Assembly: GCA_021734045.1 (NCBI GenBank)
Contig: JAIPJR010000001.1
Coordinates: 1 to 64,000 of the forward strand
Reading direction: 5' to 3'
DNA length: 64,000 nt
From: Fidelibacterota bacterium
Lineage (GTDB): Bacteria; Fidelibacterota; UBA8477
In this document: positions 50,641 to 53,955 of the stretch, one piece after another
Position numbering within the stretch: the first letter of the stretch is position 1
Layout of the letters: every line of letters begins with the position of its first letter
The notes under the pieces: model-generated
What the model was told of the DNA's origin: nothing
The model's input: the letters and a program-made list of their open reading frames with translations, nothing else
Databases searched by the model: none
Made by a program: the position numbers and the translations under genes

Positions 50641-53600
50641 ATGATTATCGCCATTGATGGTCCGGCGGCATCCGGAAAATCCAGTACTGCAGCGCGTGTT
50701 GCGGCGAAATTGGGGTTCCGGCATATTGATACCGGTGCCATGTACCGGGCTGTGACCTTGTACATGTTGGATCATGGTGTAGATATTTCGGACACAGAAT
50801 CCGTTCTGAACGTACTGCCGGATGTGGATGTGTCGCTTGAATTTAAAGGTGATAATCAACATGTGATTCTAGCGGGTGTGGATGTGAGTGATCGCATCCG
50901 AACGCCGGCTGTGAATGAGCATGTGAGCCAGGTTAGCGCAATACCGGCCGTACGCCAGCGTCTCGTAGAACTCCAGCGCCAAGCTGCCAATGACTACGAT
51001 GTGGTATTGGAAGGACGCGACATCGGAACAGTCGTATTTCCCAATGCCGAATTGAAAATTTTTATGATTGCCGATGTCCATGTCCGGGCACAACGGCGCC
51101 AGCAGGAGTTGGCGAGCCTGGGCATTCAGCAAGACCTGGCTGAATTGGAAAAAGATCTGATAGCGCGTGACAAAATCGATTCATCGCGAGAATTGTCACC
51201 ATTGAAACCCGCTACTGATGCAGTCGAGCTGGATACATCCAAGCTTACCATCGACCAGCAGGTAGCATTCATCGTTAACCAAGCCAAGCAACTGATTGCA
51301 GAGGAGGAAAGACCCTTCATGGCAGAAGAAGAAAAAAAGGATGCACCGCAGACTGAAGACCAGTCCCAGGAGACATCCGAAACCACCTCAGACGCCGTCG
51401 AGATGACGCCCGCCGAGGAAACCCAGGACAAAAAAGAAGAGACCATCGCGTCTGAACCTGAACCCGAAACCAAAACCGAGACCGAAGCTGAATCCAAAAC
51501 TGAAGCCGAAGCCGAAGCCGAAGCCGAAGCCGAAGCCGCAGAAACTGACGCTAACACCGCATCTGCTAAAGATGAGGGTGACGAAGTCAGTTCTGAGGTA
51601 GCACAAAAAACTGATGCTGAAATGACGCCTGAACAAGCCCCGGATACAGAAGCACCGGTCGAGGAAAGTGCGGAATCATCTGACAAAGATGAACCGGCCA
51701 AAAGCACTCGGAAAACCGTCAAGGTGAAAGCCAAAACTTCTGGTGAGCCACCGGTTCAACCGGTTGTTGATGCGGAAGAAGCTGAAAAAGCTTCGAAAAA
51801 GATTGCCGGACTGGATAAACGGTCCGCCATGAATGACATCTTCAACCAGATCAAGACAGTGAAGCCGGATCAGCTTGCTGAAACCATTGCTGAAGAATCC
51901 GAGGAAGTGAAAGACCTTTCCTTCCTGCTGGATCGTACTATCGCAGACATTACGCCGCGTACCCTGGTGGAAGGGCGTGTCATTTCTGTGGGCGATCGTG
52001 AAGTACTGGTGGACATCGGTTTCAAATCCGAAGGGCTGGTTTCCCGGGATGAATTCAAGGATGACGAATTGCCCAAGGTGGGTGATAAAATCGAATTATT
52101 CCTGGATACACTGGAAGATGATCAGGGTCAGACAATTCTGTCCAAACGCAAAGCAGATTTCATGCGTGTCTGGACCGCGATAAAAGATGTTTCCGACAAT
52201 GACGACCTCATCAATGGCACCATTACTCGCCGGATTAAAGGTGGTATGGTGGTGAATGTGATGGGTATTGATGCCTTCCTGCCCGGATCGCAACTGGATG
52301 TGCGCCCCATCCATGATTTTGACGCATATATCGGAAAGTCCTACGACTTCAAGATCGTCAAACTCAATGAAACCCGGAAGAATATCGTACTCTCACGGAA
52401 AGACCTGCTGGAGGAAAAACTCCAGAAACAGCGGGCTGAACTGTTGAAGAATATCGAGATTGGCCAGGTACTGGAAGGCCGGGTAAAAAATATCACCGAT
52501 TTTGGCGTATTCGTCGACTTGGGTGGTGTTGATGGTCTGTTGCATATCACCGATTTGTCCTGGGGACGGGTTAACCATCCCTCTGAAGTTGTGGATATGG
52601 ACGATGAAATTACCGTAAAGGTGATTGATTACGATGAAGAAAAACAGCGTGTCTCGCTGGGATTCAAACAGTTACAGCCACACCCGTGGGAACATGTGGA
52701 ACAGAAATATCCTGTGGGTTCTGCTGTTAAAGGCAAAGTGGTCAGCATCACCAATTACGGTATTTTTGTGGAATTGGAAGAGGGTGTTGAAGGTCTGGTA
52801 CATATCTCAGAAATTTCCTGGACCCAACACATCAAGCATCCATCGGAAATTTATTCGGTTGGTGACGAAATTGAGACCGTCGTGCTTTCAATCGCACCGG
52901 ATGATCGTAAAATCAGCCTGGGCGTGAAGCAACTGAAACCGGATCCCTGGACCCTGATTGAGGATACCTACATCGTGGGTACACTCCACACAGGTACGGT
53001 TAAGAACCTGACCCAGTTCGGCGCATTTGTTGAATTGGAAGAGGGTATCGAAGGCCTGATCCACATCTCAGATCTCTCATGGACGCGCAAAGTCCGTCAT
53101 CCGAAAGAGGTACTGAAACGCGGAGACGAAGTGGAAGTCCGCATTCTCGACATTGCTCAGGACCAGCGGAAAATCTCGCTTGGGCTCAAGCAGGCCGAGG
53201 AGGATCCATGGCCGCAGATTGAACAGGAATTTGCCGTGAACAGCACCCGTAAGGGTAAAGTCATCAAATTGCTGGACAAAGGCATCATCCTGGAGCTGGA
53301 AGGGACCGATGTTGAAGGTCTGATTCCCCTGGCTGCGTTCAACAAGAAAGACCGGAAGACGATTCTGGATAAGTTCGAGGTAGATCAGGAAGTAGAAGTC
53401 AAGGTGATCGAGATTGATCCCAATGACAAGAAAATCCTGGTCAGCCATGAAGCCGCCATCAAAGATAAAGAACGGGCGGTTGTGGACGAATATCTGCGCG
53501 GTCAGAAGCAGGACGGCAATAAGCTTGACATTCCCGATGAAATCGTGGCCAAAATCAAGGAAGCTGCCGAGGAAGAAACCGAGAAAAAGGTTGCTGCTGC

Positions 53601-53955
53601 TGCCAAGCGGAAAGCCGCTAAAGCAAAAGAAGAAGAAAAAGCACAGAAAAAAGCGGATGCGGAAGATGCTGCGGAATCAGAAGCTGAAGAGAAGCCTGCA
53701 TCCAAAACCAAAACCAAATCCAAATCCAAATCGAAATCGAAAGCAAAATCCGAAGATACGGAAGATGCTGCCGATGCCGATGCCGATGCCGATGAGGATG
53801 CTATTGAAACGGAAGCCACTGGAGAGAAAGAGCAATCTGACTCTGATGTGGAAAACGATGAAAAACCAGCGGACGAATCCGAATCTCCTGATGACGATTC
53901 AACAAAACCCGCTGATGATGCGAACGATGAGGAAGAATCCAAAGACGATAAGTAA
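50641..53955 (+). CDS. cmk-rpsA: In-frame fusion: cytidylate kinase / 30S ribosomal protein S1
   Basis: 1104 residues in one open frame. Residues 1-226 are a complete CMP kinase: P-loop DGPAASGKSSTAARVA, DTGAMYRAVTLYM, VVLEGRDIGTVVFPNAELKI and the LID-type RDKIDSSRELSPL. Residues ~227-400 are an acidic, low-complexity linker. Residues ~430-960 hold six S1 domains; the third to fifth are the best conserved (GVFVDLGGVDGLLHITDLSW, GIFVELEEGVEGLVHISEIS). The last ~130 residues are Ala/Lys/Asp/Glu repeats. CMP kinase phosphorylates CMP/dCMP; S1 brings mRNA to the ribosome. cmk and rpsA are usually adjacent separate genes; here the stop between them is missing, but a strong internal ribosome site precedes ATG 51319, so free S1 may also be made. 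Confidence 0.93.
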   Translation: MIIAIDGPAASGKSSTAARVAAKLGFRHIDTGAMYRAVTLYMLDHGVDISDTESVLNVLPDVDVSLEFKGDNQHVILAGVDVSDRIRTPAVNEHVSQVSAIPAVRQRLVELQRQAANDYDVVLEGRDIGTVVFPNAELKIFMIADVHVRAQRRQQELASLGIQQDLAELEKDLIARDKIDSSRELSPLKPATDAVELDTSKLTIDQQVAFIVNQAKQLIAEEERPFMAEEEKKDAPQTEDQSQETSETTSDAVEMTPAEETQDKKEETIASEPEPETKTETEAESKTEAEAEAEAEAEAAETDANTASAKDEGDEVSSEVAQKTDAEMTPEQAPDTEAPVEESAESSDKDEPAKSTRKTVKVKAKTSGEPPVQPVVDAEEAEKASKKIAGLDKRSAMNDIFNQIKTVKPDQLAETIAEESEEVKDLSFLLDRTIADITPRTLVEGRVISVGDREVLVDIGFKSEGLVSRDEFKDDELPKVGDKIELFLDTLEDDQGQTILSKRKADFMRVWTAIKDVSDNDDLINGTITRRIKGGMVVNVMGIDAFLPGSQLDVRPIHDFDAYIGKSYDFKIVKLNETRKNIVLSRKDLLEEKLQKQRAELLKNIEIGQVLEGRVKNITDFGVFVDLGGVDGLLHITDLSWGRVNHPSEVVDMDDEITVKVIDYDEEKQRVSLGFKQLQPHPWEHVEQKYPVGSAVKGKVVSITNYGIFVELEEGVEGLVHISEISWTQHIKHPSEIYSVGDEIETVVLSIAPDDRKISLGVKQLKPDPWTLIEDTYIVGTLHTGTVKNLTQFGAFVELEEGIEGLIHISDLSWTRKVRHPKEVLKRGDEVEVRILDIAQDQRKISLGLKQAEEDPWPQIEQEFAVNSTRKGKVIKLLDKGIILELEGTDVEGLIPLAAFNKKDRKTILDKFEVDQEVEVKVIEIDPNDKKILVSHEAAIKDKERAVVDEYLRGQKQDGNKLDIPDEIVAKIKEAAEEETEKKVAAAAKRKAAKAKEEEKAQKKADAEDAAESEAEEKPASKTKTKSKSKSKSKAKSEDTEDAADADADADEDAIETEATGEKEQSDSDVENDEKPADESESPDDDSTKPADDANDEEESKDDK
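51301..51321 (+). promoter_or_regulatory. Internal ribosome-binding site and ATG for a separate S1 product
   Basis: GAGGAGGAAAG followed by seven bases and ATG (51319-51321). It sits exactly at residue 227, where cytidylate kinase homology ends and S1 would begin (MAEEEKKD). It is far stronger than the site of the upstream cmk start, and the position equals the normal rpsA start. The bases also code for EEERPF in the fused frame. Confidence 0.62.
51502..51537 (+). repeat. In-frame hexanucleotide repeat (6 x GAAGCC) in the S1 linker
   Basis: Six perfect tandem GAAGCC units encode a Glu-Ala run inside the acidic linker. A second in-frame tract, four GCCGAT units near 53772-53795, encodes Ala-Asp repeats in the C-terminal tail. 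Unit length is a multiple of three, so slippage would alter length without changing frame. Confidence 0.85.

Follow-up and report, generated by a model that had tools for sequence, protein, structure and literature searches.

The cmk–rpsA Locus

Within the stretch of DNA analysed here (64 kb; hereafter, the window), one frame of 1104 codons runs through a cytidylate kinase (Cmk) and a ribosomal protein S1, with no stop codon between the two domains (Table 1). The protein sequence across the junction reads QLIAEEERPFMAEEEK. An in-frame fusion of these partners had been proposed in the first-pass annotation of the window, and the Pfam and NCBIfam matches to both parts bear this out. In the 1104-aa translation, the Pfam search placed Cytidylate_kin first, followed by six S1 stretches. 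The kinase part passed the NCBIfam (d)CMP kinase equivalog TIGR00017 (244 bits vs. a cut-off of 135.55) and could be aligned end to end with solved Cmk structures; the GRDIGT motif shows no variation across 13 fused relatives, nor does most of the P-loop (GPAASGKS). At the sequence level, it is a predicted enzyme of the (d)CMP kinase family (TIGR00017/PF02224). The S1 part passed two NCBIfam 30S S1 equivalogs (NF004953, 750 vs. 720; TIGR00717, 592 vs. 577) and, with its six domains, is a predicted 30S ribosomal protein S1.

The assembly (2.5 Mb, 119 contigs, 92% complete) contains a single Cmk match and a single six-domain S1, both inside the fused frame, and neither partner is present as a separate copy in this 92% complete assembly. 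With an uninterrupted frame, two complete partners and conservation in relatives, the locus is an enzyme–S1 gene fusion.

An AlphaFold2 model was built on the 13 fused relatives. Because its overall confidence is modest (pLDDT 62), only the domain layout was taken from it: a kinase folded to residue 222, a stretch from 224 to about 430 without confident structure, and then the S1 OB folds. As the kinase fold ends at 222 in this model, the internal ATG (Met227) follows closely after the final helix of Cmk. In unfused species, too, the long disordered acidic stretch is part of S1, and 34 to 196 residues precede the first S1 core match across the fused species. Acidic low-complexity extensions with Ala-Glu, Lys-Ser and Asp-Ala runs are found at both ends of S1 (51319–51930 and 53640–53955). 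The Rfam scan of positions 50300–52000 gave no match, and the promoter scan of the + strand between the two parts revealed neither a promoter-like site nor an excess over shuffles.

Table 1. Features of the fused cmk–rpsA locus (positions in the window).
Feature	Position	Strand	Basis or remark
cmk start region, without a clear Shine-Dalgarno sequence	50619..50643	+	−2.2 kcal/mol
Fused cmk–rpsA reading frame	50641..53955	+	1104 codons; Pfam and NCBIfam matches
CMP kinase part, residues 1–226	50641..51318	+	Pfam domain 3–217; model folded to residue 222
Internal Shine-Dalgarno sequence AGGAGG for free S1	51302..51307	+	Anti-Shine-Dalgarno pairing; frozen synonymous sites in genus
Possible small hairpin GGAGG-AAAGAC-CCTTC, in which the Shine-Dalgarno sequence pairs with bases before the ATG	51303..51318	+	
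Predicted free S1, 878 aa, from internal ATG (codon 227)	51319..53955	+	
Acidic low-complexity N-terminal extension of S1, predicted disordered (residues 224–430)	51319..51930	+	
Six S1 (OB-fold) domains	51964..53448	+	Pfam and structure model
Intrinsic-terminator-like hairpin 3′ of the frame	53978..54005	+	Consensus match only; 7 found in the region vs. 4.8 expected

Predicted Translation Starts of the Fused Frame

The first-pass annotation had also pointed to a strong Shine-Dalgarno sequence and ATG where rpsA would begin and to a cmk start devoid of a clear ribosome-binding site, and both observations stand. The internal ATG (51319–51321) is separated from AGGAGG by an 11-nt spacer and lies exactly at the expected start of rpsA. 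Pairing with the anti-Shine-Dalgarno sequence, computed with the standard bacterial 16S tail (assumed), amounts to −12.0 kcal/mol at this site, the strongest value among the 63 in-frame start codons of the ORF; at the cmk start it is −2.2 kcal/mol. In a baseline drawn from the 46 ORFs of the 64-kb window, only two out of 419 internal in-frame ATGs reach −12. All three species of the genus, which are close to one another, share the sequence of the small hairpin over the internal Shine-Dalgarno site. This weak stem might couple S1 initiation to the passage of ribosomes through cmk.

Fused and Separate Genes in Relatives

The assemblies that come closest to the window among named ones are Candidatus Marinimicrobia (Neomarinimicrobiota). 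The Marinimicrobia phylum was searched by open-frame length, and the DNA of 66 loci was then examined. The frame is open through both domains at 35 of these loci, which belong to seven families: all three species of the window's genus (family f1), 15 species of f2, and species of f4, f6, f16, f23 and f28. All resolved f2 species but one are fused, and two more f2 loci have an open junction and are cut off by a contig edge. At loci with separate genes, rpsA lies directly 3′ of cmk, in any of the three frames and often overlapping it. Every fused species keeps an in-frame ATG or GTG at the junction, with a Shine-Dalgarno strength mostly of rank 1–3, and the Shine-Dalgarno sequence itself is retained in nearly all fused lineages. 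The dual start, rightly singled out in the first-pass annotation as the unusual part of the locus, is recurrent across the phylum and not peculiar to this genome.

The tree of Cmk and S1 requires at least eight changes between the fused and the separate state, four of them forced by well supported branches; thus, the fusion has been gained and lost several times. Five species of genus g17 read GGAGGAAAA TGA ATG or close to that, while a sixth (G062) reads GGAGGAAAA TTA ATG. Conversely, species of genus g3 read GGAGGAAAC TTA ATG, and one member of that genus (G005) reads GGAGGAACTAAC TGA ATG. In G005 and G062, as compared with their own genera, the stop is thus present or lost at the codon immediately preceding the same ATG. 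A stop between the genes in relatives had been named beforehand as an observation that would count against the fusion. Such stops do occur, in G005 and in most of g17, but outside the window's genus; given this, and their position right before the same ATG, they are read as a toggling of the stop and not as a refutation.

One of the 99 genomes sampled in the sister phylum (G249) has an 852-codon Cmk frame, which is a Cmk–S1 fusion as well. Its junction, ACC GGA GGA AAA CTA ATG, shares the GGAGGA..ATG layout and is the strongest of 41 in-frame starts. This fusion arose independently, so that there is at least one origin in the sister phylum.

Two further Cmk loci differ from those above. In Latescibacterota (CP070677.1, 5001–5663), a Cmk frame of 531 aa is possibly a fusion to an acyltransferase-like (PlsC-like) protein, as judged from reading it only. 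A Cmk match interrupted by ten in-frame stop codons (G088:C1:115042-115683), in a Marinimicrobia genome of reduced size (0.8 Mb), is perhaps a decaying cmk.

Selection on the Internal Start

Synonymous variation around the S1 start was compared with that upstream in the same alignments; sites were taken as independent units, while the sequences are related and each comparison lies inside one tree. In the window's genus, three out of 20 third codon positions vary between −48 and +11 of the S1 start, against 59 out of 100 upstream (p = 4 × 10−4), and between −21 and +11 none of 11 varies (55 out of 100 upstream). These frozen third positions indicate selection on the internal start at the nucleotide level. 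Conservation of the open frame together with the internal site, which the first-pass annotation suggested looking for in close relatives, is thus found and visible at synonymous positions.

The 16 species of g3, aligned from cmk to the S1 start without indels, show the same pattern over −48 to +11 (3/20 vs. 93/100 upstream; p = 2 × 10−12). The contrast is smaller in f23 (7/20 vs. 65/100; p = 0.02), and conservation is modest in genus g7 of f6 (8/20 vs. 73/100). Genus g17 was left out of this evidence, as its sequences are misaligned with one another upstream. In g3, the two Gly codons of GGAGGA are GGA in 31 of 32 cases, and the sole exception, GGT, still reads GGAGGT. These genes use GGT for Gly more often than any other codon, and coding constraint alone would not keep the GGA GGA codons in this way. 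With both the start and its ribosome-binding site conserved, the site has the features of a putative internal in-frame start of the infB type. In some lineages the internal site could be a relic, considering the predicted pairing of only −5.6 in f28 and the modest conservation in f6 g7.

The 3′ end of cmk in g3 (L113–L130) contains a perfect 8-bp hairpin, TGTCTCCA-RGG-TGGAGRCA, about 25–50 nt upstream of the S1 start, with almost zero synonymous variation across the 16 species. It is a candidate regulatory element of rpsA in g3. The window's genus lacks this hairpin, which is therefore excluded from the explanation of the locus described here.

Codon Usage and Stop Gains

The codon usage of the two halves was compared, first against small per-genome references and then against a pooled reference. 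The S1 half is more ribosomal-protein-like than the Cmk half in all of the 14 fused g3 species, significantly so in several, whereas no such difference was found in the window's genus and f6 g7. Codon usage thus supports unequal expression of the halves, as far as sequence can indicate it, in g3 only.

At the rates of fourfold sites, about 15 stop gains would be expected in the cmk tail of g3 vs. one observed. The tail shows few substitutions of any kind. Because the constraint on the ribosome-binding site freezes the tail, the deficit is confounded and selection for the fusion is unproven by it; when the substitution rate of the tail itself is the yardstick, stops do not appear to be clearly avoided.

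Comparison with Known Systems

Fusions of S1 and internal in-frame starts are each already known. According to the literature, IspH–RPS1 fusions occur in clostridia, fusobacteria and others (more than 400 proteins), and one IspH–S1 is enzymatically active, its S1 domains not being needed (PMC4746011). As in Cmk–S1, an enzyme of small-molecule metabolism is joined to S1 and neither gene has a separate copy (PMC4746011), but the enzyme is a different one and an internal start is unmentioned in PMC4746011. A Cmk/S1 fusion is present at the annotation level in Treponema pallidum (TP0279; PMC3373638; PMC3570794); it joins the same two partners in one frame in a distant phylum, and is known here from its annotation only. 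Cmk is likewise fused in frame in the NCBIfam families PanC-Cmk, AroA-Cmk and Cmk-Der, with different partners, and none of the NCBIfam matches listed (25 of 37) names a Cmk/S1 fusion.

Internal in-frame starts are documented in bacteria for infB (IF2 alpha/beta) and CheA-S/L, where one frame with two starts gives a long and a short product (PMC11005335). Unlike in these systems, the short product of Cmk–S1 would be a whole ribosomal protein, the long one would add a complete unrelated enzyme, and the origin would be the loss of a stop between two genes. A search of the literature on Cmk–S1 fusions or internal rpsA starts yielded only the Treponema annotations. The combination of a recurrent stop-loss fusion of an enzyme to S1, a selected internal S1 start and a toggling stop was not found described in the literature searched.

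Proposed Origin and Expression of the Fusion

Since the S1 part still has a ribosome-binding site and a start codon of its own within the frame, this one frame probably yields both Cmk–S1 and free S1. The first-pass annotation had left the choice between a single bifunctional protein and two products from one frame; the latter is the better supported. We consider it likely that cmk and rpsA were fused by the loss of a stop with rpsA initiation kept, so that the weak cmk start gives little Cmk–S1 and the internal start most of the S1. In an adjacent cmk–rpsA pair, the stop of cmk would have been lost, with the ribosome-binding site and start of rpsA retained inside the joined frame. Initiation at the weak cmk site would produce small amounts of the 1104-aa Cmk–S1, which would be the only source of CMP kinase found in the cell; because a second copy was not found, the fused frame must supply this activity. 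Initiation at the AGGAGG-ATG site would provide larger amounts of free 878-aa S1 for the ribosome, and, as rpsA keeps its own initiation in the frame, the amount of free S1 would be set by this strong site. The disordered acidic stretch of ~200 residues would leave the kinase free to fold and function with S1 bound to the ribosome; with the domains separated by such a linker, the fusion may be tolerated, and a stop could be gained or lost. From the sequence, we infer both products, their ratio and the kinase activity in the fused state.

A bolder reading, which we regard as rather doubtful, is that the fusion has been selected for: a minority of ribosomes would bear a kinase tethered by S1, so that CTP/dCTP precursors are made, or CMP is salvaged, where translation and mRNA decay take place, with the two starts setting the ratio of plain to kinase-bearing ribosomes and the hairpin coupling S1 synthesis to Cmk translation. 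Unlikely as well is an effectively two-protein state, in which the fused chain is cleaved or degraded so that almost none reaches the cell and the stop loss is neutral. The toggling of the stop between close relatives, a long disordered linker that would suit proteolysis, and stops that seem not clearly avoided against the tail's own substitution rate would all agree with it, but the fused frame must be the source of Cmk activity, a second copy not having been found, and under neutrality stops should have reappeared frequently within the order, for which the naive fourfold-site estimate, although confounded, gives about 15–20 gains vs. one seen.

It is improbable that only the full-length protein of 1104 aa is made, the internal start being a silent relic from before the fusion. 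The frame stays open across long evolutionary distances, the halves show no difference in codon usage in the window's genus, and the IspH–S1 of Clostridium thermocellum is expressed as one active protein (PMC4746011). Against these points, hardly any synonymous change is seen around the internal start in the window's genus and g3, the Shine-Dalgarno sequence is kept in nearly all fused lineages, even through a change from GGA to GGT, and the cmk start, which would then be the sole source of S1, is almost without one. Finally, although this is a draft assembly of 119 contigs, the chance that an assembly or sequencing error, a concern of the first-pass annotation, removed the stop or shifted the frame is negligible: the frame is open throughout the genus (three of three species) and most of the order, and the same junction is open in the separate G001 and G002 assemblies, in 15 resolved species of f2 and in five further families. 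For the window's genus, whose other two species show the open junction in independent assemblies, the error is rejected.

Annotation of the locus in these genomes as a single 'bifunctional' protein of 1100 aa would hide the likely true start of S1. Separate genes, genes with a stop directly before the ATG, and genes with no stop form a natural series, from which one can follow how a fusion is born and undone with the internal start still in place. Should there be selection for the fusion, enzymes would be hung on a fraction of the ribosomes through the tuning of two starts in one frame.
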